Both the position numbers and the translations under genes were made by a program. From positions 1-64,000 of the forward strand of contig JAEEWM010000002.1 of the NCBI GenBank assembly GCA_016287385.1: a DNA stretch of 64,000 nucleotides, read 5' to 3'. The notes beneath the pieces are model-generated. The model saw only the letters and a list, made by a program, of their open reading frames with translations, ran no database searches and had not been told where the DNA came from. Origin of the DNA: Clostridiaceae bacterium (lineage in GTDB: Bacteria; Bacillota; Clostridia; Oscillospirales; Acutalibacteraceae). Position 1 is the stretch's first letter; every line of letters begins with the position of its first letter. Below, one piece after another: positions 4,446 to 15,615 of this stretch.

Positions 4446-5345
4446 GTGGAGAGCGGTATATCCGATATTGCGGTGAAAATGCGGAGGGATTACGCCGGGA
4501 AAAAGTTTTCGGTGCTCGGCGATTCCATAACCACGCTGGAGGGTTACAGCCCCGACGGCTACCGCGTTTACTATTGCGGATGGCACCTTAAAAAAACCGG
4601 TGTCACCCGCATGGAGGACACCTGGTGGGGAAAGGTTATAAACTTTTTCGGCGGAACTCTTCTTAAAAATAATTCCTGGTCGGGAAGCCGGGTCGCGAAA
4701 GCGCCGGACAGCGACGGAGTATTTCCCTCGGCGTGCTCGGATGAACGCACAGGCGCGCTCGGCGACGGTGAAACATCACCCGACGTTATAATAATCTACC
4801 TCGGCGCAAACGACTGGGAAAAAGGCGCCGTACCGGGAGTAAGACGACCCGCCGCGTACGGTGAAGCCACGGGCAAAAGCGCGGGCGGCTTTGAGACCGG
4901 CGATATTGAGGTTTTCTCGGTCGCTTACGATCTTATGCTGAAAAAACTAAAAAATAACTATCCGGACGCCGAAATCTGGTGCTTGACAATGGCAAAAACT
5001 TATGTTTCAAGCGACCCGTCGCATGAGTTTATTACTGATTACGCCGGTTATCCCGTATATGATTACAACGATGCTATTAAAAGCGCCGCGTTTGAAAACG
5101 GATGTCATATTGCGGATTTATACTCTTTCGGATGGGCGTACGATTCGGTCGACGGCTCTCACCCCACGGCGGAGGGTATGCGCGTTATGGCAAATATGAT
5201 TTGCAGATGTATGTGTGCCGACGCCGGCGAGTTTCTCGACTGTAAGGGTAAGGCGCACGAGTATGTACACGTTGAAAGCTACACGGGCGGCGAAAAATTC
5301 GTTTGCCGGCACTGCGGCAGGGTGCGCCACGATTTGACGGTGTAA
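4446..5345 (+). CDS. SGNH/GDSL-family hydrolase with C-terminal Cys motif
   Basis: About 299 aa from the GTG at 4446; AGGAG sits 8 nt upstream, whereas the longer ATG frame (4353) has no ribosome site and overlaps the promoter. Block I is VLGDSITTLEGY with the nucleophile Ser of GDS. Block III is YLGANDW with the Asn of GxND. Block V is DGSHPTAEG with the catalytic Asp and His. These enzymes are serine esterases or lipases, often removing acetyl groups from polysaccharides. No signal peptide is seen, so it is probably cytoplasmic. The last 45 residues add a CxxC pair (CRHCGR) and further His residues, which look like a small metal-binding tail and are not part of the usual fold. The substrate is unknown. 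Confidence 0.85.
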   Translation: MESGISDIAVKMRRDYAGKKFSVLGDSITTLEGYSPDGYRVYYCGWHLKKTGVTRMEDTWWGKVINFFGGTLLKNNSWSGSRVAKAPDSDGVFPSACSDERTGALGDGETSPDVIIIYLGANDWEKGAVPGVRRPAAYGEATGKSAGGFETGDIEVFSVAYDLMLKKLKNNYPDAEIWCLTMAKTYVSSDPSHEFITDYAGYPVYDYNDAIKSAAFENGCHIADLYSFGWAYDSVDGSHPTAEGMRVMANMICRCMCADAGEFLDCKGKAHEYVHVESYTGGEKFVCRHCGRVRHDLTV

Positions 5346-5391
5346 ACGGAATATTCACTTTGATTAACGCAAGATAAGCGGAGGTAAAAAT

Positions 5392-6132
5392 ATGTTTGAC
5401 GCAAAAAAAGCAAAGGACGGCTGTGTGGCGTGGATACGCGACTTTTTTGAAAAAAACGGTCCGGGCTGCAACGCGGTCGTCGGCATATCCGGCGGAAAGG
5501 ACAGCTCGGTAGTCGCCGCGCTGTGCGTTGAGGCACTCGGGCGCGAGCGGGTGATCGGCGTGCTTATGCCAAACGGGGAGCAGGCGGATATCGATATGGC
5601 GAAGCTGCTTGTAAACCACCTCGGCATACGCCATTTTATAGTAAATATCAAAGACGCGGTCGACGGCGTCAAAAACGCCGTTCCGTTTGAGCTGTCGGAG
5701 CAATCGAAAAACAATCTGCCCGCGAGAATACGGATGGCGACGCTTTACGCCGTATCGCAAAGCAATAACGGCAGGGTCGCCAACACCTGCAATCTTTCCG
5801 AGGACTGGGTGGGTTATTCCACCCGTTACGGCGACAGCGTCGGCGATTTCAGCCCGTGCTCGAATTTTACCGTGTATGAGGTCAGGGCGATAGGCAGACT
5901 GTTCGGTCTACCCGACGTGCTTGTCGATAAAGTGCCTATCGACGGGCTTTGCGGTAAGACCGATGAGGAAAATCTCGGCTTTACCTATGCCGAGCTTGAC
6001 AGATATATCCGCGAGGGTAAAATCGACGATCCGGTAAAAAAAGAGAAAATCGACCGCCTGCATAGAATCAACGCCTTTAAGCTTGAACTTATGCCGGCTT
6101 ACACGCCTGATTTTAAGGAGGAAACAAAATGA
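5392..6132 (+). CDS. nadE: NH3-dependent NAD+ synthetase
   Basis: 246 aa, the normal length for the short, ammonia-using form without a glutaminase domain. It adenylates deamido-NAD and amidates it to NAD+, the last step of NAD synthesis, in the cytoplasm. The N-type ATP pyrophosphatase loop is GISGGKDSS at residues 31-39. Further family motifs are NTCNLSEDWVGYSTRYGDSVGDFSP and VDKVPIDGLCGKTDEENLG. The start at 5392 has GGAGG 8 nt upstream. Its stop overlaps the next start (ATGA), so it is translationally coupled to nicotinate phosphoribosyltransferase, the salvage enzyme that supplies the upstream intermediate. Confidence 0.95.
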   Translation: MFDAKKAKDGCVAWIRDFFEKNGPGCNAVVGISGGKDSSVVAALCVEALGRERVIGVLMPNGEQADIDMAKLLVNHLGIRHFIVNIKDAVDGVKNAVPFELSEQSKNNLPARIRMATLYAVSQSNNGRVANTCNLSEDWVGYSTRYGDSVGDFSPCSNFTVYEVRAIGRLFGLPDVLVDKVPIDGLCGKTDEENLGFTYAELDRYIREGKIDDPVKKEKIDRLHRINAFKLELMPAYTPDFKEETK

Positions 6133-7331
6133 AACTTGAACCTATCATAGTATCGTTGCTTGATACCGACCTTTATAAATTCAATATGGACCAGGTCATA
6201 TTTCATAAGCATACCGACCTTTGCGGTCAGTATTATTTCAAGTGCCGCAATGAAAACATCGTCTTTACCGGTGAAATGGTAAAGGAAATAAACGAGCAGG
6301 TCGATCATCTCTGCTCGCTGCGGTTTTCAAAAAAGGAGCTTGACTATCTCCGTTCGATACGTTTTATCAAGGACGACTATGTAGAGTTCCTGCGGCTTTG
6401 GCACCCGATACGCGATTACGTCAGAATAGAGCTTAAAGAAAACGGCGAGCTTTCCGTGGAGATAAACGGACCGCTGTTTTCCGCCATGCAGTTTGAGATA
6501 TACCTGCTTGAAATAATAAACGAAACATATTTCAGGATGGCTTACGATTACGAAAAGCTTAAAGCGAGCGCGGCGGCGCGGCTCGATGAAAAAATCAAAG
6601 CGATGAACGACGGCACCTATACCTTCAAATTTGCTGAGTTCGGTTGCCGCCGACGCCTTTCGCGCGAGTGGCAGGATGAAGTTATTTACCGCCTTATCAC
6701 CGAAACCGATAAATGCGTGGGCACCTCAAACGTATATCTCGCGATGAAGTATAATATTACGCCTGTCGGCACATACGCGCATGAGTTTGTGCAGATGTAT
6801 CAGGGCATTGATTCAATACCGCTCGCGTATACAAATTACTACGCGATGAAAGACTGGTATAACGAATATAACGGCGATAACGGTACCGCGCTTACCGATA
6901 CGGTTACGACCGACCTGTTTTTGCTTGATTTTAACCGTTCCATGGTCAACAACTATACCGGCGTACGCCATGACAGCGGCGACCCGTACGAATGGGGCGA
7001 AAAAATCATAGCGCATTATAAAAAATACGGGGTAGACCCGAAAACCAAGCTGTTGCTTTTCAGTGACAGTCTGACTTTTGACCGTGCACAGGCGCTTTAT
7101 GACTATTTCCGCGATAAAACGAGGGTTTCTTTCGGCATAGGCACTTTCGTTTCAAACGATACCGACGCCGAGGCGCTCAACATCGTAATAAAACTCCAAT
7201 ACGTAAACGGCAGACCGGTGGCAAAGCTTTCTGATACGCCGAGTAAGGCGATGTGCCGCGACGAGGGCTATCTCGAATACTTAAAGCGTTCGGTCGCTTT
7301 CAGACTTGACAGGGAGAAGGACAGACGTTAG
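6129..7331 (+). CDS. pncB: Nicotinate phosphoribosyltransferase
   Basis: 400 aa, the same length as the Escherichia coli enzyme, which it resembles along its length. It joins nicotinate to PRPP with ATP use to give nicotinate mononucleotide, the entry step of the Preiss-Handler salvage path. Visible motifs are LLDTDLYKFNMDQ at the N-terminus, FGCRRRLSREWQ, VGTSNVYLA and GVRHDSGDPYEWGEK, where His281 would be the residue that is phosphorylated during the reaction. The C-terminal KLSDTPSKAMC segment is also conserved. The start overlaps the nadE stop by 4 nt with AAGGAGG just upstream, so both are made from one mRNA. The stop codon is TAG, showing that TAG is a normal stop here. Confidence 0.95.
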   Translation: MKLEPIIVSLLDTDLYKFNMDQVIFHKHTDLCGQYYFKCRNENIVFTGEMVKEINEQVDHLCSLRFSKKELDYLRSIRFIKDDYVEFLRLWHPIRDYVRIELKENGELSVEINGPLFSAMQFEIYLLEIINETYFRMAYDYEKLKASAAARLDEKIKAMNDGTYTFKFAEFGCRRRLSREWQDEVIYRLITETDKCVGTSNVYLAMKYNITPVGTYAHEFVQMYQGIDSIPLAYTNYYAMKDWYNEYNGDNGTALTDTVTTDLFLLDFNRSMVNNYTGVRHDSGDPYEWGEKIIAHYKKYGVDPKTKLLLFSDSLTFDRAQALYDYFRDKTRVSFGIGTFVSNDTDAEALNIVIKLQYVNGRPVAKLSDTPSKAMCRDEGYLEYLKRSVAFRLDREKDRR

Positions 7332-7334
7332 AAT

Positions 7335-7369
7335 CTGCCGCTGTAAGGCGCGGGTCTTTACCGCGGCAG
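7335..7369 (+). other. Imperfect hairpin in the pncB 3' region
   Basis: CTGCCGC (7335-7341) pairs with GCGGCAG (7363-7369), and GTAA with TTAC inside it after one mismatch. There is no T-run, so it is not a terminator by itself. It may protect the 3' end of the nadE-pncB mRNA or simply be chance. Confidence 0.3.
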
Positions 7370-7392
7370 GATTGAAACGAATCGAAAAACAG

Positions 7393-7426
7393 CGCACGGC
7401 GCGGAGATTTCCGCGCCGTGCGTTTT
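7393..7426. terminator. Bidirectional intrinsic terminator
   Basis: A perfect 12-bp stem (CGCACGGCGCGG at 7393-7404 with CCGCGCCGTGCG at 7411-7422) and a 6-nt AGATTT loop are followed by TTTT on the plus strand; an A-run at 7386-7389 gives a short T-run on the minus strand. It lies between convergent genes and can serve both. Confidence 0.9.
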
Positions 7427-7441
7427 GCTTAAAAACATTCT

Positions 7442-8035
7442 TTAACGCAAGCCCTCAACCGCTTCAAAAAGTCCGTGCCGGTTGCAGTATGCGTATATTC
7501 CTTTCACGCCGCCGATTTTGAATCTCGCCTCGGCGTTCCCCTCGGGATACAGTTTCAAAAACTGCACTTTATCGTCCGATATCGCCGCTAAAAAAGAAAT
7601 ATGATGGCTTTTTTCCATAGGGTGATCGAGCGTGACGAAGTATTCGTCTTCAACCGTACGAACTTTGACGGTATGCTCCTCCGACGCGGGCTCAGGGAGC
7701 GCGGGCGGCAGGGTTATGCCGCAGCAGCTTATCACCGCTTCACCCACGGCGCCGATAATATTTCCGCAAACCGGGCAGACGTAAAACCTGCCCTTGCCAA
7801 TATCGGAAGAGCGGTTGCGGTTTCGTACGTCCTCGCCGGAGAGCAGTTCTATTACCGAAATGCCGAGCGCGTCCGCAAGCGACTCAAGCAGACAGACATC
7901 CGGGAAACCGCGCCCCGTTTCCCATTTGCTTACGGCTTTATCGCTGACGAGAAGCTTTTTTGCAAGCTCTTCCTGCGTCATTTTTTTATCCTCGCGCAGT
8001 TTGCGTATTACCGCGCCGGTAACGTATTTGTCCAT
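7442..8035 (-). CDS. XRE regulator fused to a desulfoferrodoxin-like iron domain
   Basis: 197 aa. Residues 1-66 are an XRE/Cro helix-turn-helix (MTQEELAKKLLVSDKAVSKWETGRGFPD). Residues 84-110 match the desulforedoxin-type Fe(Cys)4 site: C87-x2-C90-GNI...C104-C105-G. Residues about 118-195 match the neelaredoxin/superoxide reductase fold, with all expected ligands of the catalytic Fe(His)4Cys centre in order: EEH (His121), DHPM (His138), SHHIS (His144) and YCNRHG (Cys184, His187). Superoxide reductases turn superoxide into peroxide in anaerobes. Fused to a DNA-binding domain, the iron centre could instead sense superoxide, oxygen or iron (inference). The gene stands alone, convergent with pncB, and is divergent from the partner-switching operon at 8231. 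Confidence 0.85.
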   Translation of the reverse strand: MDKYVTGAVIRKLREDKKMTQEELAKKLLVSDKAVSKWETGRGFPDVCLLESLADALGISVIELLSGEDVRNRNRSSDIGKGRFYVCPVCGNIIGAVGEAVISCCGITLPPALPEPASEEHTVKVRTVEDEYFVTLDHPMEKSHHISFLAAISDDKVQFLKLYPEGNAEARFKIGGVKGIYAYCNRHGLFEAVEGLR

Positions 8036-8134
8036 AAAATCGCCCCTTTGTCCTTATAATACCACGGGCGTTTTCAAATGACAACCTACGCTCGGTAGAG
8101 TGAAAAGGCGGGCATTTTGCAGCGTATTAAAATC

Positions 8135-8163
8135 TTGAATTATGAAACGATATATGATATAAT
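8135..8163 (+). promoter_or_regulatory. Promoter of the partner-switching operon
   Basis: TTGAAT (8135-8140), 17-bp spacer, TATAAT (8158-8163). It is a good sigma-A promoter 68 bp before the ATG at 8231 and is the only strong one I see before 14917, so the six genes that follow are probably one transcript. The gap 8036-8134 holds no gene. Confidence 0.75.
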
Positions 8164-8230
8164 AACTTATCAGGCAGATGATATTACCCGAAAGGGTTTA
8201 ACCGCCTGAAAATAAAAAGGAGAAGAGTAA

Positions 8231-8815
8231 ATGAAAACTGAACAAATCACTGTAACCGGCAACGGAATCGGAATAGATAAAGCGCTTGAGGCAACGGAAA
8301 AACTCGGAAACGAAGCCGGGCTTGATAAAAAATCGGCGCTGCATCTCCGCCTTATCGCCGAAGAACTGTTCGGTATTCTGCGCGGCATTGCCGGGGAGGT
8401 TGAGGCGTGCTGCTGGGCACAAGCCGAGGGCAGGGCTTTTGAAGTCTGTATGAAGTCGGAAGTGAAAATGACCGATGAATTACGCGAGCGGCTGATAGCC
8501 GTATCCACAAGCGGCAAAAACTCCGCCGCGTTAGGAGTTATGGGCAAGATTCGCGTTATGATAGCGGATATGCTGGTTTCCGCAAAAGAAACTATGCCCT
8601 ACGCAATGATGAACACGGCGGCGGCATATAACGCCGCGACCCCTTATGTGTGGACTATGTCGGAATATAAGACCGCGGTTAAAAATGACATCGAAAACAG
8701 CCGTGAGGCATGGGACGAACTTGAAAAATCCGTAATTGCCAACATCGCCGACGATGTCAAGGTAAGCATACTGGGTAAAAGCGTCGGCATAACCGTTTAT
8801 AAAACATTCAAATAA
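8231..8815 (+). CDS. Degenerate GHKL ATPase-like (anti-sigma-type) protein
   Basis: 194 aa, with AAGGAG 7 nt before the ATG. The middle (about residues 35-120) resembles the RsbW/SpoIIAB-like kinase fold: a helix with IAEELFGIL sits where the N-box (E..xN) belongs, and GVMGKIRVMIADM resembles the G2-box helix. The N-box Asn is missing and no DxG box is visible, so ATP binding is doubtful. The C-terminal 60 residues (HATPase-like strand ending SILGKSVGITVYKTFK) are not recognised beyond that. It begins an operon with a STAS antagonist and a PP2C phosphatase. It could be a binding scaffold or decoy for STAS proteins instead of a kinase (inference). Confidence 0.6.
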   Translation: MKTEQITVTGNGIGIDKALEATEKLGNEAGLDKKSALHLRLIAEELFGILRGIAGEVEACCWAQAEGRAFEVCMKSEVKMTDELRERLIAVSTSGKNSAALGVMGKIRVMIADMLVSAKETMPYAMMNTAAAYNAATPYVWTMSEYKTAVKNDIENSREAWDELEKSVIANIADDVKVSILGKSVGITVYKTFK

Positions 8816-8843
8816 AAACAAATAACAGAAAGAGGAAAAAGCA

Positions 8844-9140
8844 ATGACAATCACAAAAGCACAAAACGGAAATGAACTCGTAGTTTCTCTGGAAGGCAGA
8901 CTCGATACGGTTACCGCGCCGGAGCTTGAAGCTGAATTCAAGGCGTCTTTAAGCGGCGTAACCGCGCTCACACTTGATTTTGAAAAACTCGAGTACATAT
9001 CATCCGCGGGTCTTCGCGTTCTGCTTTCGGCACAGAAGGTGATGAACACTCAGGGCGAAATGAAAGTAATAAACGTAAACGAGACCATTATGGAAATATT
9101 CGAGGTCACGGGTTTTTCGGATATACTTACCGTTGAATAG
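8844..9140 (+). CDS. STAS-domain anti-sigma factor antagonist
   Basis: 98 aa, a single STAS domain of SpoIIAA/RsbV size. The phosphorylation loop is LEYISSAGLRVLL, with Ser53 and Ser54 as the candidate sites that a GHKL kinase would phosphorylate and a PP2C phosphatase would clear. In the known switch the unphosphorylated form binds the kinase and frees its other partner. It has AGAGGA before the ATG and is followed 14 nt later by the phosphatase gene. No sigma factor gene is nearby, so the output may be a protein other than a sigma factor. Confidence 0.95.
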   Translation: MTITKAQNGNELVVSLEGRLDTVTAPELEAEFKASLSGVTALTLDFEKLEYISSAGLRVLLSAQKVMNTQGEMKVINVNETIMEIFEVTGFSDILTVE

Positions 9141-9154
9141 ACCGGCAAAGTAAT

Positions 9155-10615
9155 ATGAAAGAAAAAAAGACGCCGTTTTTTGCAAGGCTGCGTGAAAGAC
9201 TTACTGCCGATGAAATGTTTCACGAGACCGAGTATCAGGCAAACCGTCTCGGTGCGCTTATTCTTTTTTGCAGCGGTATTATTCTGCTTATAATTCTTAT
9301 TCTCACCGCGCTGGGCGTGTTCCTTCTGCCGCTTAGCTCGGTCTTTTCTCCTGCCGTTCAGGCAATAGTGGAGATTATAATACTGCTTGTTATATGCCGC
9401 CTTGTGAAGTACGACGCGTGGTGGCTTAAACCGCTTTTGCTGCTCGGACTGGTTCTGGTTTATGCCCGGCTTGACGGTATGCTTACTCACAAAGCGGCGA
9501 TACTTATGGTTATTCCCGTGGTTTTCAGCAGCCGTTATTTTTCAAGACGGCTTACCGTTTTCACGTCGATACTGTCAACGGTGGTTTTTGCCTGCTCCGC
9601 GTACTGGGGCGCTACGCACGGCCTTATAAATCTTAACATCGTAACCTTCCCCGAGGGAACGGTAATGACCGCGACCGGCGGTTTTTTGGGCGAGGCGATA
9701 CAAAATGCCGGCGCGACTGACAGAATGCTTATCGTCAACACGCTGATATTCGATTATCTGCCGAAGTGGCTGATGTTTTCCATTATATCGATAATAAGCT
9801 GTAATATCGCCCGCCGCGGACGCGACCTCGTTGTAACACAGCATGAAAAGGATTTGAAGAGCGCGCGCATAGAGTCGGAACTTAACCTTGCTACGAGTAT
9901 TCAGGCGGATATGCTGCCGAATATCTATCCGGCTTTCCCCGAAAGGACCGAATTTGACATATACGCAACTATGGATCCGGCGAAAGAGGTAGGCGGCGAC
10001 TTTTATGACTTTTTCCTTATTGACGACGACCATCTCTGTATGGTAATGGCGGACGTTTCCGGAAAGGGCGTTCCCGCGGCGCTCTTTATGATGGCGTCTA
10101 AGATTATTCTTGCCAACAACGCCATGATGGGCAAAAGCCCCGCGAGAATTCTGGCGGATACCAACGCGGCGATATGCTCAAATAACCGCGAGGAAATGTT
10201 CGTTACGGTATGGCTGGGTATTTTTGAGATTTCCACCGGTAAGCTGACCGCCGCCAACGCGGGACACGAGTATCCCGTTATTAAGCGCGCAAACGGAGAG
10301 TTTGAACTGCTTAAAGACAAACACGGCTTCGTGATAGGCGGTATGGACGGAACCGTATACAGGGAATATGAGCAGACCTTCGAGCCCGGCTCAAAGCTGT
10401 TTCTTTATACCGACGGCGTTCCCGAAGCGACCGATGCAAACGGCGAAATGTTTACGGCGGAACGTATGCTTGAAGCGCTTAACGGCAACAGCTCGGCGGA
10501 TCCCGAGTCGATACTTAGAAGCGTTCGTTCGGCGGTTGACGGTTTTGTAAATAAGGCGGAGCAGTTTGATGATTTGACAATGCTTTGCTTTGAGTATAAG
10601 GGACTTGAAAAGTAA
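9155..10615 (+). CDS. Membrane-bound SpoIIE/RsbU-type PP2C phosphatase
   Basis: 486 aa. Residues about 30-155 and 190-215 hold about six hydrophobic membrane segments. A short linker helix (225-250, ARIESELNLATSIQADMLP) is the usual start of RsbU-type phosphatase domains. The catalytic domain (265-480) has the metal ligands in EVGGDFYD (Asp282), MADVSGKG (Asp300), YTDGVPEA (Asp420) and FDDLTML (Asp472/473). It would dephosphorylate the STAS protein encoded just upstream and perhaps the STAS domain of the triple fusion. The membrane part looks like a sensor with no named domain; what it senses is unknown. The ribosome site is weak, so translation may be coupled to the STAS gene. Confidence 0.95.
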   Translation: MKEKKTPFFARLRERLTADEMFHETEYQANRLGALILFCSGIILLIILILTALGVFLLPLSSVFSPAVQAIVEIIILLVICRLVKYDAWWLKPLLLLGLVLVYARLDGMLTHKAAILMVIPVVFSSRYFSRRLTVFTSILSTVVFACSAYWGATHGLINLNIVTFPEGTVMTATGGFLGEAIQNAGATDRMLIVNTLIFDYLPKWLMFSIISIISCNIARRGRDLVVTQHEKDLKSARIESELNLATSIQADMLPNIYPAFPERTEFDIYATMDPAKEVGGDFYDFFLIDDDHLCMVMADVSGKGVPAALFMMASKIILANNAMMGKSPARILADTNAAICSNNREEMFVTVWLGIFEISTGKLTAANAGHEYPVIKRANGEFELLKDKHGFVIGGMDGTVYREYEQTFEPGSKLFLYTDGVPEATDANGEMFTAERMLEALNGNSSADPESILRSVRSAVDGFVNKAEQFDDLTMLCFEYKGLEK

Positions 10616-10656
10616 TTCTTTACGGCTATAATAACCGTTTGTTAGTGTGATGTGGG

Positions 10657-12414
10657 ATGATTAAAAAGGTTTTCAGGCAAATGCTCGCGGCTCAGATACT
10701 CTCTGCGATGACGGTCATGATATGTATGCTGGTTGACAGTATCATTATCGGACGTTTTCTCGGAGTAGACGCGATGACCGCCTACGGGCTCGCTAACCCG
10801 GTACTGCTTATTTTTGCGGCGGTGGGAAGTATGCTTTCCGCCGGCATACAGGTGGTATGCGGTAAATTTATGGGAATCGGTGACCGCGAGGGAACAAACC
10901 GCTGTTTTTCGGCGGCGGTGTTTCTCGTTGCGGCAATTTCCGCGGCGGGGCTCGTTTTGGTGCTTGCGCTTTCTTCGCCGCTTTGCGTGTTTCTCGGCGC
11001 CGGGAAACCCGTGTCGGACAACAGGGTGTTTTTCCTTACTCAGGATTACCTTCGCGGCTTTATTGTCGGCGCGCCGGCGTTTCTCTGCGCGATGATAATG
11101 GTGCCGTTTATGCAGATGTCCGGCAACAGGACAAGACTTGTTGCGGCGGTGGCGGCGATGACGGTTTCCGATATCGCTTTTGATTTGCTGAATGTTTACG
11201 TCTTTAAGGGCGGCACGCTCGGTATGGGGCTGGCTTCAAGTTTCAGTTATTATATCGCGCTTGTTATCGGCGGGTCATATTTCTTAAAGAAGAACAGTAT
11301 GTTCCGTTTAAGCCTTAAAGGGATAACGGCAAAAATTTGCGCCGATATTTTCAAAAACGGAATACCCACTATGCTTAATCAGGTGAGTATGGTATTGCTC
11401 GTATTTCTTTTTAATAAATTGCTTCTGTACGTCGGCGGCAACATTTCGGTCGCCGCGTATTCCATTGTTTCCACAATAGGAAATATCTGTTACTGCTTCG
11501 GCGCGGGTATAGGCGCGGTCGCGCTTATGATGTCTTCGCTCTTTTACAGCGATGAAGACCGGCGCGCGCTTTATACCATTGTCAGAACCATGGCGTTTTA
11601 CGCGGTCGTTTCCACCGCGGCGGTGATTGGCGTTCTGATGTTCGCGGCGCCGTTCCTTGTCGGCCTGTTCATTTCGGGTGATTCCGGACCGCGGGAAATA
11701 GCGGCGGCGGGTGTGCGGCTGTTCTCACTCTCTTTGATGCCGAGCGCCCTTAACACCGCGTTTAAGAATTTTTATCAGGGGACGGAGCGCACAAGACTTA
11801 CGAGGATAATTTCGGTATTGCAAAGCTTTGTTTTTACCGCGATTTACGCGGTGATACTCAGCCGTTTTTTCAAAACCACGGGCGTTTGGTGCGGCTGGGT
11901 GCTCGGGGAGTCGACCACGCTTTTGTTTATCTGCGTATTTGTCTGGCTTAAAAACAAAAAAATCGCGGTTTCTTCAAAAATCTACGCGCTTCTTCCGAAA
12001 GATCTCGGTACCACACAGGATAACTGTTTTGATATTACGGCGCGGACGACGGCGGAAGTTGTCGCGGCGTCCGAAAAGGCGACGGCATTCTGTCTTGAAC
12101 GCGGCGAGAGCGAGCGCGACAGCAGACTGATTTCTCTTTGCATTGAAGAAATGGCAAATAATATAGTTGAACACGGCTTTACAAAGGATACCCGCAAGGA
12201 CCATACAATAGATATCCGCCTTATTTTCAAGGATGATAAGCGGCTTATCCGTATACGCGACAACTGTGTTAATTTCGATCCGATCGCCTATATGGATTTA
12301 CATAAAACCGACGACCCCACGGTACATATCGGTATACGCCTTGTAATGAAAATGGTGAAGGACGCAAACTATGTTTGCTCACTCGGGCTTAATAACCTTA
12401 CGCTTGCCCTTTGA
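10657..12414 (+). CDS. MATE-family transporter fused to a GHKL kinase-like domain
   Basis: 585 aa, about 135 longer than ordinary MATE proteins. Residues 1 to about 445 are a complete 12-helix MATE transporter (start VFRQMLAAQILSAMTVMICMLVDSI, then GMGLASSFSYY and FKNFYQGTERTRL), a family that exports drugs or organic cations using an ion gradient. Residues about 455-585 are a cytoplasmic GHKL ATPase-like domain with an intact N-box (CIEEMANNIVEHG, Glu498 and Asn502), a G1-like segment (IRDN, Asp535, lacking the normal glycine) and a G2-like HIGIRLVMKM (Gly559). The frame is continuous, with no sign of frameshift. The setting beside STAS and PP2C genes suggests that transport or ligand occupancy is tied to a partner switch (inference). 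Confidence 0.9.
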   Translation: MIKKVFRQMLAAQILSAMTVMICMLVDSIIIGRFLGVDAMTAYGLANPVLLIFAAVGSMLSAGIQVVCGKFMGIGDREGTNRCFSAAVFLVAAISAAGLVLVLALSSPLCVFLGAGKPVSDNRVFFLTQDYLRGFIVGAPAFLCAMIMVPFMQMSGNRTRLVAAVAAMTVSDIAFDLLNVYVFKGGTLGMGLASSFSYYIALVIGGSYFLKKNSMFRLSLKGITAKICADIFKNGIPTMLNQVSMVLLVFLFNKLLLYVGGNISVAAYSIVSTIGNICYCFGAGIGAVALMMSSLFYSDEDRRALYTIVRTMAFYAVVSTAAVIGVLMFAAPFLVGLFISGDSGPREIAAAGVRLFSLSLMPSALNTAFKNFYQGTERTRLTRIISVLQSFVFTAIYAVILSRFFKTTGVWCGWVLGESTTLLFICVFVWLKNKKIAVSSKIYALLPKDLGTTQDNCFDITARTTAEVVAASEKATAFCLERGESERDSRLISLCIEEMANNIVEHGFTKDTRKDHTIDIRLIFKDDKRLIRIRDNCVNFDPIAYMDLHKTDDPTVHIGIRLVMKMVKDANYVCSLGLNNLTLAL

Positions 12415-12450
12415 TACAGACTTGATTTTGTGTAAAACGGAGGTAACAAT

Positions 12451-14040
12451 ATGACTGAAAAAACAACAGCGGCGCCGGTAACGGTAGTTTTATCCGGCAG
12501 GATAGATTCGGCAAACGCCGCCGAGACCGAAGCCGCCATTAACGCACAGCTTGCCGGCAAGGGCGACGTGCCGGTGATTTTAGACGCGACAAACCTCGAA
12601 TATATATCCAGCGCGGGACTCAGAGTAATTCTGCGCATTAAAAAGCTCAGCCCCGAGCTTAAAATAATCGGTGTAAAATCAGAGGTCTACGAAATATTCG
12701 AGATGACCGGCTTTACCGAAATGATGACGGTTGAAAAAGCGTACCGCACCGTTTCGGTCGAGGGTTGCGAAGTAATAGGCGAGGGCGCGAACGGCAAGGT
12801 TTACCGCATAGACGGCGATAACGTAGTAAAGACCTACAAAAACGCCGACGCTTTAGCGGAAATTCAGCATGAGCGCGAAGTCGCCAGACTTGCGCTCGTA
12901 TTAGGCATACCGACCGCTATTTCATACGACGTTGTGAAAGTGGGCGACAGTTACGGTTCGGTATTCGAGCTGTTGGACGCGAAGTCATTTTCAAAGCTTT
13001 TGGCGAGAGAACCGGAGCGCTTTGACTGGTGCGTCGGGGAATACGTGAAAATGCTTAAAAAGATACATTCCACGGTAGTACCCGAGGGGAAACTGCCCGC
13101 TTTCAAGACAAAGATACTGAACGCTATACGCAGGACGAAAGAGCTCCTGCCCGGCGACCTCGGCGAAAAGCTTCTTAAAATGACCGAGGATATACCGGAA
13201 AGCAACAATATGATACACGGCGATTACCATACTAAAAATATCGTGCTTGCCGGCGACGAGGTGCTGGTAATTGATATGGATACCCTTTCGGTCGGTCATC
13301 CGATTTGCGATTTTATGCGTATGTACAGCGCGTATATCGGTTATTCCGAAAACGATCCGGAGATTATTCTCAAATTCCAGGGTTACAGTCAGGAGGTCGC
13401 AAACCGCTTCTGGCACGACACTCTCGCCGCGTATCTCGGCACCGATGACGAGAGTGAAATCGAGGCGGTCAACGACAAGGTGCGTTGCCTTTCATACGGA
13501 TACCTGCTTGACTGGGGTACCCGGCATAACGCAAGCGGCGACTTACTCGCGCTTTGGAAGAGCCGCCTTATCGAGCTTTTGCCGCGTATCGATTCGTTTA
13601 CCTTTGAAATCGCGGAAAACGCGGGCGGCGACCCGAATGAGCTTGAGCTGGAGGCGACCACGGAGAATCTGCAAACGGTTATTGACTTTGTGGATGCGCG
13701 GCTTGCCTCGGTTGAATGTCCGTTAAAATCCAAAATGCAGCTTGACCTCGCCGTAGAGGAAATATTTGTCAACATCGCAAATTACGCGTACGCGCCCGGC
13801 AGAGGAAAAGCGAGAGTTCGCGTTGAGGTTTCGGGCGACCCCGTCACGGTCGCTATCACCTTTATCGACAGAGGCGTTCCGTACGATCCGCTTAAAAAGG
13901 TCGATCCGGACGTTACGCTTTCGGCGGAGGAAAGGGATATCGGCGGTCTCGGTATTTTTATGACAAAAAAGGTAATGGACGATATTTCCTACGAATACAA
14001 AAACGGTCAGAATATTCTGACGCTTAAGAAAATGATTTGA
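12451..14040 (+). CDS. STAS - APH-like kinase - GHKL triple fusion protein
   Basis: 529 aa, GGAGG before the ATG, one unbroken frame. Residues 5-97 are a STAS domain with the same LEYISSAGLRV phospho-loop (Ser53/54) as the stand-alone STAS protein of this operon. Residues about 105-385 are an aminoglycoside-phosphotransferase/choline-kinase-type fold: a nucleotide loop GEGANGKVYRI (110-120), Lys127, the catalytic loop HGDYHTKN (256-263) and DMD (275-277). Residues about 398-529 are a GHKL domain with N-box EEIFVNIANYA (Glu437, Asn441), DRG (473-475) and GGLG (498-501), all better preserved than in the two other GHKL domains of the operon. One polypeptide thus carries a switch substrate, a small-molecule or protein kinase and a serine kinase. 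The substrate of the middle domain is unknown. Confidence 0.9.
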   Translation: MTEKTTAAPVTVVLSGRIDSANAAETEAAINAQLAGKGDVPVILDATNLEYISSAGLRVILRIKKLSPELKIIGVKSEVYEIFEMTGFTEMMTVEKAYRTVSVEGCEVIGEGANGKVYRIDGDNVVKTYKNADALAEIQHEREVARLALVLGIPTAISYDVVKVGDSYGSVFELLDAKSFSKLLAREPERFDWCVGEYVKMLKKIHSTVVPEGKLPAFKTKILNAIRRTKELLPGDLGEKLLKMTEDIPESNNMIHGDYHTKNIVLAGDEVLVIDMDTLSVGHPICDFMRMYSAYIGYSENDPEIILKFQGYSQEVANRFWHDTLAAYLGTDDESEIEAVNDKVRCLSYGYLLDWGTRHNASGDLLALWKSRLIELLPRIDSFTFEIAENAGGDPNELELEATTENLQTVIDFVDARLASVECPLKSKMQLDLAVEEIFVNIANYAYAPGRGKARVRVEVSGDPVTVAITFIDRGVPYDPLKKVDPDVTLSAEERDIGGLGIFMTKKVMDDISYEYKNGQNILTLKKMI

Positions 14041-14047
14041 CGGGAGC

Positions 14048-14917
14048 GTGCGTGATATTTCAAACGTGGCAGGTAAAATCGATTTGCATATGCACACCAC
14101 GGTTTCCGACGGTACCGATACGCCCGCTTTGCTGGTGCAAAACGTCAGGGACGCGGGCATAAAGGTGTTTTCCGTGACCGATCACGACGCGGTGAAATCA
14201 GCGGGTATCATACGCCCGCTTTTGGGTGACGGCGACCCGGCGTTTATTCCCGGCGTTGAGTTTTCGTGCAGGGATGACGGCGGCAAATACCATATTCTCG
14301 GATACGGCTTCGACCCCGAAAGCACCGCGGTCAGATACGTTGTGGAGCACGGACACTCAATACGTATGAAAAAGGTCACGGCGCGGCTTGAATTTTTGAA
14401 GTCGGAATTCGGCTTCGTCTTTCCGAAAGAGGACGTTGACAAATTGCTTTCGCTTGACAACCCCGGCAAGCCGCACATCGGAAACCTTATGGTCAGGCAC
14501 GGCTTTGCCGATACCAAGGAAAACGCGATAAACAATTATATTAACCGTATTCGTTTTACCGATGAATATATAGGACCCAAAGAGGCGATTTCCGGTATTG
14601 TAGCCGCCGGCGGTATACCGGTGCTCGCCCATCCGTTTTACGGCAGCGGCGACGAGCTTATTATTGGCGGCGATATGGAAAAACGGCTCTTACGCCTTAT
14701 AGAGTGCGGGCTTCGCGGCATAGAGGCATATTACTCGGGTTTTTCCGAAAAGATGTGCGGCGAGGCGCTTTCACTTGCCGAAAGATTTGACTTGTACGTC
14801 ACCGCGGGCAGCGATTACCACGGCGGCAATAAGCTGGTAAAACTCGGCGACACCGGGCTTTCGGGTGAGACAGAATACCCAAAGGGGCTGCGCCGTTTTT
14901 TGGAAGCCGTGCTTTAA
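14048..14917 (+). CDS. PHP-domain phosphoesterase (TrpH/YciV type)
   Basis: About 289 aa. The N-terminal IDLHMHTTVSDG is the HxH metal motif of the PHP superfamily, followed by VTDHDAV, PGVEFSC, a late LAHPFYG and a final GSDYHGG. That layout is the one seen in 3',5'-nucleoside bisphosphate phosphatase / RNase AM proteins of about 280 aa. The start is uncertain: the GTG at 14048 has GGGAG only 1 nt away, so translation may instead rely on coupling to the triple-fusion gene that stops 7 nt upstream. It is the last gene of the operon before a terminator. A link between the phosphatase and the switch is only suggested by position. Confidence 0.85.
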   Translation: MRDISNVAGKIDLHMHTTVSDGTDTPALLVQNVRDAGIKVFSVTDHDAVKSAGIIRPLLGDGDPAFIPGVEFSCRDDGGKYHILGYGFDPESTAVRYVVEHGHSIRMKKVTARLEFLKSEFGFVFPKEDVDKLLSLDNPGKPHIGNLMVRHGFADTKENAINNYINRIRFTDEYIGPKEAISGIVAAGGIPVLAHPFYGSGDELIIGGDMEKRLLRLIECGLRGIEAYYSGFSEKMCGEALSLAERFDLYVTAGSDYHGGNKLVKLGDTGLSGETEYPKGLRRFLEAVL

Positions 14918-14948
14918 CGGTTTTGAGTATTAAACGTATATAATCCAA

Positions 14949-14974
14949 AAACCCGGTAAATCACCGGGTTTTTT
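14949..14974 (+). terminator. Intrinsic terminator of the partner-switching operon
   Basis: AACCCGG and CCGGGTT flank a 7-nt TAAATCA loop, followed by a T-run. An A-run precedes the stem. Confidence 0.85.
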
Positions 14975-15009
14975 GAGCGCTGTTTTCAGATTTCAGAAAG
15001 GGCAGAGGT

Positions 15010-15615
15010 ATGAAATATAAGAATTATATATTTGATTTCGGCAACGTGATAGTTCGTTTCGAGCCGGAAATAATGATGAGTCCCTACATTCCGGATAAAG
15101 AGGACAGACGTTCAGCCGGCAAAGTAATATTTGACCGCGCATACTGGGATAAGTTGGACGCCGGAAGTATAACCGACGGGGAAGTAATATCCGGTATAAA
15201 ATCGCGTTTGCCCGCACGACTGCACAAGGCCGCCGTCGACGCGTACTTGAACTGGTATTGTAATCTGCCGTTTATCAGCGGTATGGATGACCTGATAAAG
15301 GAAATAAAAGAAAAGGGCGGAAGACTTTTTCTGCTTTCAAATATCAGTACCGGTTTTGCCGAAAATTACAGTAAGATAGATAGTCTGCGCGAGCTGTTTT
15401 CGCTTTTCGACGGACTCGTTTTTTCAGGCCCCGTAAAAACAGTGAAGCCGGACTTGCGGATTTTTGAATATTTGCTTAAAAAATATGATATCAGCGCGAA
15501 AGAGAGCGTTTTTATAGATGATAACCCCGCAAACATAAACGCCGCCGCAAAAATACCGGTTAAAGGATATCTTTTTGACGGCGACGTGAAAAAACTGAAA
15601 TCAAGTATTATTTGA
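15010..15615 (+). CDS. HAD-superfamily hydrolase, YihX-like
   Basis: 201 aa. Motif I is IFDFGNVIV with nucleophile Asp9, the variant seen in YihX-type sugar phosphatases where Asn replaces the second motif aspartate. Motif II is FLLSN, motif III is the Lys/KPD of VKTVKPDLRIFEYLL, and motif IV is FIDDNPANI. The cap is helical and sits between motifs I and II. YihX removes phosphate from alpha-glucose-1-phosphate; the substrate here may differ. It lies alone between two terminators, with AGAGG before the ATG. Confidence 0.85.
   Translation: MKYKNYIFDFGNVIVRFEPEIMMSPYIPDKEDRRSAGKVIFDRAYWDKLDAGSITDGEVISGIKSRLPARLHKAAVDAYLNWYCNLPFISGMDDLIKEIKEKGGRLFLLSNISTGFAENYSKIDSLRELFSLFDGLVFSGPVKTVKPDLRIFEYLLKKYDISAKESVFIDDNPANINAAAKIPVKGYLFDGDVKKLKSSII

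Follow-up and report, generated by a model that had tools for sequence, protein, structure and literature searches.

Partner switches have mostly been studied as regulators of sigma factors. The question raised by the locus described here is what such a switch might control when its operon carries no sigma gene. The locus lies within a stretch of 64,000 nucleotides (nt) from a Clostridiaceae bacterium (order Oscillospirales; GenBank assembly GCA_016287385.1, contig JAEEWM010000002.1, positions 1 to 64,000), the whole of which is called the window below. The window is part of a 246 kb contig (C26) of a 1.86 Mb genome, which is assembled in 27 contigs and listed as 99.97% complete. The operon encodes, in this order, a GHKL-like protein (g1), a STAS protein, a membrane SpoIIE-type PP2C phosphatase, a MATE-GHKL fusion, a STAS-APH-GHKL fusion and a PHP phosphoesterase. 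We give about one chance in two to the reading that it specifies a partner switch of the RsbU/RsbV/RsbW type with outputs built into its own proteins, i.e. the MATE transporter and the APH kinase, and not a sigma factor.

A preliminary description of this DNA had proposed a six-gene operon. Its six open reading frames (ORFs) were found exactly where it had placed them, all on the forward strand between 8231 and 14917 and separated by short gaps of 28, 14, 41, 36 and 7 nt (Table 1); the six-gene set and its single orientation are confirmed.

Table 1. Features of the operon and its flanks, in window positions (aa, amino acids)
Feature	Position	Strand	Basis or remark
XRE-type HTH protein with desulfoferrodoxin-like C-terminal domain	7442-8035	-	
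Promoter-like site, TTGAAT-17-TATAAT	8135-8163	+	10/12 match, TG before the -10 box; such matches common in the region
Gene 1 (g1), 194 aa, putative GHKL-like pseudo-kinase	8231-8815	+	AlphaFold2 (AF2) model, weak profile matches
Gene 2, 98 aa, free STAS, anti-sigma-antagonist type	8844-9140	+	Pfam STAS 3.3e-15; TIGR00377
Gene 3, 486 aa, SpoIIE/RsbU-type PP2C	9155-10615	+	Pfam SpoIIE 8.8e-49
Gene 3, PP2C catalytic part	10022-10597	+	
Second promoter-like match	10605-10632		11/12 match
Gene 4, 585 aa, MATE-GHKL fusion	10657-12414	+	Pfam MatE 5e-23, HATPase_c_2 1.9e-7
Gene 4, MATE part	~10657-11976	+	
Gene 4, C-terminal GHKL	~12001-12411	+	
Gene 5, 529 aa, STAS-APH-GHKL	12451-14040	+	Pfam STAS 3.1e-13, APH 3.1e-16, HATPase_c_2 4.7e-22
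Gene 5, STAS	12451-12750	+	
Gene 5, APH/TIGR02172 kinase	~12769-13434	+	
Gene 5, GHKL kinase	~13651-14031	+	
Gene 6, 289 aa, PHP phosphoesterase	14048-14917	+	Profile match to solved 3e0f, 9etk, 2yb1, 7ug9
Intrinsic terminator, 11-pair hairpin (14947-14973) and T run	14947-14976	+	-16.4 kcal/mol, z -3.25
HAD hydrolase	starts at 15010		Next gene past the terminator

All three parts of a partner switch were recognised by sequence: a STAS protein with a phosphorylatable serine, a GHKL kinase with intact boxes and a SpoIIE/RsbU-type PP2C. The free STAS protein, gene 2, scores 75.1 bits against TIGR00377 (cut-off 53.5). Its phospho-serine motif, ISSAGL, is present in 60 of 61 free STAS proteins and also in the STAS domain of gene 5; at the phospho-site, the difference in quality once proposed between the two STAS domains of the operon does not exist. 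Gene 3 has a hydrophobic N-terminal half ahead of its catalytic part, and all 47 homologues (47 of 47) share D282, D300, D420, D472 and D473. For gene 5, 49 homologues were compared and all have the STAS serines S53 and S54, the APH residues K127, H256, G257, D258, N263, D275 and D277, and the GHKL residues E436, E437, N441, D473, G475, G498, G499 and G501, the N, G1 and G2 boxes being intact. We take these invariant residues, like those given below for genes 4 and 6, to be the catalytic or metal-binding residues of their families. Since the key residues never vary, all three domains of gene 5 look active. The STAS and GHKL parts match the solved SpoIIAA and RsbW; the APH part has the HGDxxxxN motif, the downstream catalytic Asp and the ATP-binding Lys of APH-type kinases and, at 103.8 bits against a cut-off of 228, lies outside the narrow family TIGR02172.

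The claim that the operon's three GHKL domains differ in quality was borne out: the gene 5 domain is intact, the gene 4 domain has lost a G1 glycine and g1 has lost the Asn of the N-box. In gene 4, E497, E498, N502, H506 and D535 are kept in 15 of 15 aligned sequences, and the G1 box has a Cys where its second glycine should stand, again in 15 of 15; with its Asn kept and its glycine replaced, the domain represents an intermediate stage. The case of g1 is less direct. It has no Pfam or NCBIfam match, and no Pfam GHKL match was obtained across the 16 members of its family. A Glu-Glu pair in line with the GHKL N-box is kept throughout the family, and the Mg-binding Asn is absent from 16 of 16 (Met, Ile, Leu or Thr instead). 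Comparison of g1 with GHKL profiles gave in-register but weak matches (P of 0.02 and 0.025), and its AF2 model (predicted local distance difference test 75.5, predicted template modelling score 0.71) has an order of elements that looks like that of GHKL domains. That g1 is a degenerate (pseudo-)GHKL protein, as first described, is likely, on the basis of a model of middling confidence and of weak profile matches. Where a STAS gene directly follows g1, 10 out of 14, gene 2 included, fall within a single 18-row tree group (Shimodaira-Hasegawa-like approximate likelihood ratio test support 93), a hint, from few columns and weak forks, of a STAS partner dedicated to g1.

The fusion of a GHKL domain to a MATE transporter points to an output other than a sigma factor. 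The MATE part of gene 4 contains two MatE stretches and, in a simple scan, 12 hydrophobic stretches over threshold, some of them overlapping. In a survey of 398 genomes of the phylum (E-value 1e-30), gene 4 found matches in seven, its own included; five were full-length with the GHKL domain and one covered the MATE part only. In these five full-length cases, from more distant Bacillota genomes (loci L163 to L167), the MATE-GHKL gene is adjoined every time by a PP2C gene, with STAS near in 3/5 and a separate GHKL gene near in 2/5. One of them, L166, consists of a STAS gene, one 436-aa gene, a MATE-GHKL fusion with an intact N-box and a PP2C, and within 13 kb nothing else encodes a GHKL domain; there the transporter would seem to occupy the place of RsbW. 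The N-box Asn is lost in six of eight MATE fusions outside the main alignment (L163 to L167, L222, L059 and L082), and for four of these six the fetched stretch also encodes an intact GHKL on its own. Because the Asn is often lost while a separate intact GHKL is mostly present, the data suggest that the MATE-fused GHKL is mainly a docking site, able to keep or to lose catalysis. Next to the MATE-GHKL gene, L164 (at 10708-12744) has a dCache-HAMP ORF followed by a PP2C ORF and L165 (at 6512-8548) a PP2C ORF of 678 aa, which suggests that the PP2C may have a sensor for outside conditions.

A tree was made of 57 MATE rows, and on it the first labelling of the fusions implied three changes. Three rows were relabelled by inspection (L194, which matches GHKL; L082, whose GHKL match is weak at 14.9 bits; and a row from the window's own genome that is cut by a contig end), after which the 27 fusion rows need a single change, with a clade support of 86/89 and 84% of 200 bootstraps. 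The MATE-GHKL fusions thus form one clade, of unsure fine order and with long branches. Independent GHKL fusions to three MATE lineages had been considered, since identity between these lineages is 19-29% for MATE versus 36-53% for GHKL, and were rejected because the tree groups the fusions together. The own-genome row corresponds to a second MATE gene of the fused clade (L207, contig C10, 3-1406, reverse strand), the C-terminus of which is lost at the contig end; 3.4 kb away, beyond a 1029-aa unannotated gene, lies a membrane PP2C gene (4833-7064, forward strand), and the two are perhaps a second circuit.

How constant the gene set is was assessed around gene 5. A scan of named genomes gave at least 387 gene 5 relatives among 596 pattern stretches, mostly in assemblies of rumen or gut Clostridia and Oscillospiraceae, and the counts that follow come from the best 80 loci. 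Neighbours were counted within 6 kb on the strand of gene 5, MATE-GHKL within 10 kb on either strand; the locus profiles were built from the window and early relatives, so that distant versions may be missed, and a contig end truncates many of the loci. A free STAS gene was found near gene 5 in 54 loci, PHP in 49, PP2C in 48, g1 in 19 and MATE-GHKL in 14; among the 44 loci whose sequence extends 4.5 kb or more to either side, the figures were 33, 29, 30, 11 and 11. In L036, which belongs to another family of the same order, all six genes occur in the same order (identities of 56, 79, 80, 77, 82 and 71%). With L036 and the recurrent neighbours of gene 5, the co-conservation that the preliminary description had set as a check on its operon was found. 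Within the order, 77 of 295 genomes match gene 5 (E-value 1e-10) and 18, own genome included, have the full STAS-APH-GHKL arrangement.

These numbers bear on the first of the alternatives, according to which the output is the APH kinase together with a PHP (or HD_4) phosphohydrolase, the two adding phosphate to a small molecule or nucleotide and removing it under regulation; MATE-GHKL would be optional and would export what is made or its precursor. Gene 6 itself falls just below the Pfam PHP cut-off (2.9e-5, 24.9 bits against 26.4), and a profile of 24 gene 6 sequences matches a solved PHP phosphoesterase at 8.6e-41; H14, H16, D21, H46, E71, H82, H143, H195, D256 and H258 are invariant in 24 of 24. 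Its sequence places it in the PHP superfamily; the best NCBIfam match, of the 3',5'-nucleoside bisphosphate phosphatase/RNase AM kind, reaches 98 bits for a cut-off of 400 and does not fix its precise activity. The frequency of PHP near gene 5, far above that of MATE-GHKL, favours this alternative. So does the distribution of PHP and HD_4 over the 80 loci (50 with PHP only, two with HD_4 only, 28 with neither and none with both), as if two nucleotide-type phosphohydrolases replaced each other; with two HD_4 loci out of 80, however, the exclusion is statistically not strong. STAS-APH also occurs without a fused GHKL: such is the case in L056 to L064, where an HD_4-like gene is present in six of nine loci (L056, L057, L059, L062, L063 and L064; Pfam-confirmed in L057 and L062, with which the others align) and PHP was detected in none. 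Against it, a transporter branch of MATE-GHKL with STAS and PP2C also exists without STAS-APH (L163 to L167), and the APH substrate may be a protein. On balance we regard this alternative as rather unlikely.

Other genes were noticed in loci of this kind. The ~190-aa gene of the split loci was tried as a counterpart of g1 and rejected, as it gave no significant match and the two that were scanned are HD_4 domain proteins. A DUF218 membrane protein recurs near the PHP gene in 15 of the 80 loci (L114, 12504-13709, and 14 others), as counted by clustering with the domain checked by Pfam in one locus; it is absent from the operon of the window. L052 has a Y_phosphatase3 protein within the gene 5 operon (7183-8361), and L074 a GH3-family protein beside STAS and PP2C-GHKL (6877-8535); these two proteins may be outputs of similar circuits.

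The second alternative is an ordinary anti-sigma switch, in which the GHKL of gene 5 would bind a sigma factor encoded elsewhere (for example SigF, SigG or the SigH-like one) and the MATE protein and enzymes would simply be co-transcribed. A sigma factor need not be encoded beside its anti-sigma factor, the GHKL and STAS domains do match the RsbW/SpoIIAB and SpoIIAA families, and both SpoIIE and a SigF/SpoIIAA/SpoIIAB set are present in this genome. There is no sigma gene in the operon, as the preliminary description stated, and one was detected in only two of the 80 related loci, where its distance to gene 5 is 1.4 kb and 5.3 kb, respectively; the profile used was built on three sigma factors of this genome and may miss factors of the extracytoplasmic function type. 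The genome has six sigma-70 region-2 genes over cut-off. RpoD, SigG and SigK are above the cut-offs of their curated models; SigE is just under its own (334 of 339 bits) and adjoins SpoIIGA; SigF is below its cut-off and yet adjoins SpoIIAA and SpoIIAB; the sixth is weakly SigH-like. By best match none of the six is SigB-like, all resemble SigA or sporulation factors, and SigF has its own adjoining SpoIIAB; a free SigB-like sigma is lacking among them. Moreover, an anti-sigma role would leave unexplained both the GHKL-MATE fusion, found in one clade across the phylum, and the STAS-APH fusion. We consider it improbable.

The rest of the inventory is equally short. The genome has three Pfam STAS domains, in SpoIIAA, gene 2 and gene 5, and four HATPase_c_2 domains over cut-off, in genes 4 and 5, in SpoIIAB and in a protein encoded among hydrogenase-like genes, plus three weaker matches below cut-off. 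The protein among hydrogenase-like genes is a stand-alone GHKL of 141 aa with a SpoIIAB-like profile match (L031, contig C17, 7875-8297), whose neighbours are Fe_hyd_lg_C and a 2Fe-2S ferredoxin. Three SpoIIE-type PP2C proteins are over cut-off: gene 3, a SpoIIE-like one and the membrane PP2C of contig C10. Because this inventory of STAS, GHKL and PP2C is nearly closed, possible outside partners are few, SpoIIAA and SpoIIAB being the obvious ones, and the circuit is nearly closed within its own genome.

The third alternative, that the STAS and GHKL parts are assembly and membrane-docking scaffolds without any phosphorylation switch, draws on the loss of catalytic residues in g1 and in many MATE-fused GHKL domains and on MlaB, a STAS protein without which an ABC transporter is neither stable nor properly assembled (PMC7367683), and is very unlikely in view of the strong constraint on a phosphorylation cycle shown by the GHKL motifs and STAS serines of gene 5 (49/49) and the PP2C aspartates (47/47).

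For the reading that we prefer, a switch with its outputs built in, a mechanism can be proposed from the domains, conserved sites, clustering and inventory observed; its binding, phosphorylation and output steps, and the substrates, are all inferred. The membrane PP2C of gene 3 would be the signal input and would dephosphorylate the STAS serines of genes 2 and 5. The intact GHKL of gene 5, acting as an RsbW-like kinase, would re-phosphorylate STAS and reset the switch. Unphosphorylated STAS would dock on the MATE-fused GHKL of gene 4 and alter transport, and on the GHKL of gene 5 and alter the APH kinase that lies between STAS and GHKL. Lacking the Mg-binding Asn, g1 might hold STAS without phosphorylating it and so set a threshold, and the PHP phosphoesterase would act on the metabolite side. 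Transport or a small-molecule reaction as output, which had been suggested at the outset, remains a proposal drawn from the domain fusions.

Several observations weigh against this reading. Only 14 of 80 loci have MATE-GHKL in the vicinity of gene 5 (11 of 44 when both flanks are long), and 19 of 80 have g1; because most gene 5 loci have no MATE-GHKL nearby, the transporter would be an accessory output at most. The fold of g1 comes from a model of middling confidence. Having kept its N-box, the MATE-fused GHKL of the window may itself act as a second kinase. The degenerate MATE-GHKL of L165 has no separate intact GHKL in the fetched stretch; the same is true of L222, whose contig ends inside the PP2C gene. 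L163 has MATE-GHKL and PP2C, and STAS was not found in the stretch fetched. Finally, a sigma factor could be bound by a GHKL domain without being encoded nearby.

More broadly, the fusions may represent a class in the Bacillota in which a GHKL domain on a MATE transporter lets STAS phosphorylation gate transport directly and without transcription, the window's version adding a STAS-gated APH kinase and the PHP phosphoesterase; this extension is possible, and we advance it tentatively. If it is true, one signal would govern the synthesis of a metabolite as well as its transport in the window's version, and in the minimal form, L166 (STAS, MATE-GHKL and PP2C), the transporter itself would stand in place of RsbW.

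The history of the locus appears to involve gene transfer. For RpoD, the window's genome shares 85-88% identity with three genomes of the same genus and 62-70% with five genomes from other families of the order (the 70% figure covers residues 105-355 only). For gene 5, identity is 60-62% in three same-genus genomes versus 68-82% in the same five other-family genomes. Since the two run in opposite directions, at least gene 5 has been transferred between lineages. The contrast is weaker for gene 4 (72-75% in two same-genus genomes, 77% in L036). Among 13 same-genus genomes, gene 5 is full length in three, broken or partial in one and absent from nine. The gene orders in the genus are STAS-APH-GHKL, MATE-GHKL, PHP in L219, PP2C, STAS-APH-GHKL, MATE-GHKL, PHP, STAS in L220, and g1, STAS, another gene, PP2C, STAS-APH-GHKL, PHP in L221, all three differing from the order in the window. 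No plasmid or phage record covers 80% of gene 5 (13 plasmid and one phage partial matches), and none of 18 pattern stretches on viral contigs encodes a relative.

The ends of the operon were also examined. The preliminary description gave it one strong promoter. There is a candidate site upstream of g1 (Table 1), and a single promoter driving the whole operon is plausible, although a better match exists between genes 3 and 4. Sequences resembling promoters abound in the region (19 in a consensus scan for 10.5 ± 3.2 expected). The match between genes 3 and 4 is not visible, by eye, at the same place in the orthologous L036, and a second promoter before gene 4 was dropped on that ground. At the other end, the announced terminator does exist, as a hairpin with a T run after gene 6; three of 200 shuffles were as good, and the consensus scan of the region did not list it. 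The XRE-type gene directly upstream is divergent. The window contains no tRNA or Rfam feature, and the operon is unremarkable in base composition.

If the MATE transporter and the APH kinase are direct outputs, the same module would serve the post-translational control of export and of metabolism, a type of control that is little known for MATE transporters. The circuit being unusually self-contained, the STAS and GHKL domains that Pfam detects in this genome leave little choice of partners, and who binds whom is testable with six proteins. Rumen and gut Clostridia, a group for which assembled genomes are the main source, widely carry the arrangement, and knowing its rules would make it easier to interpret many other STAS/GHKL/PP2C loci lacking an assigned output.

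In its PP2C, phospho-serine STAS and GHKL serine kinase, the operon is like the RsbU/RsbV/RsbW and SpoIIE/SpoIIAA/SpoIIAB systems of Bacillus. Unlike these systems, it has no sigma gene, its kinase is fused to STAS and APH, and it has a second GHKL on a MATE transporter and a GHKL-like protein devoid of the Mg-binding Asn. Partner switches with other outputs are already known; what appears new here is the GHKL-MATE and STAS-APH-GHKL fusions. No paper on either protein was recognised by title or abstract start in open PubMed Central, a scope that leaves subscription journals and preprints outside, and TIGR02172 is mentioned in no paper of that open library. The comparisons that follow hold for the parts of the cited sources that were consulted. 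SiaA/SiaB/SiaC/SiaD, HsbA/HsbD and BgrV/BgrR act on diguanylate cyclases (PMC8457831); they share with the present operon an enzyme as output, theirs being a diguanylate cyclase, with no mention of a transporter or APH fusion. In CapK/CapS and VapK/VapS, an HTH-STAS-GHKL or STAS-GHKL kinase acts on a separate STAS protein, the outputs being a DNA-binding repressor and the VapC toxin, respectively (PMC13373217); they too have a non-sigma output, and PP2C, APH and MATE are not mentioned for them. SypA/SypE, BtrU/V/W, RbaV and HmpV are presented as non-canonical STAS-only proteins with a non-sigma or unidentified target (PMC8256260), and transporter or APH fusions are not described among them. 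STAS is also tied to transporters, in MlaFEDB through its MlaB subunit (PMC7367683) and in SulP/SLC26 (PMC8256260): there it is a STAS domain that is linked to an ABC or SulP transporter, whereas here it is a GHKL domain that is linked to a MATE transporter.

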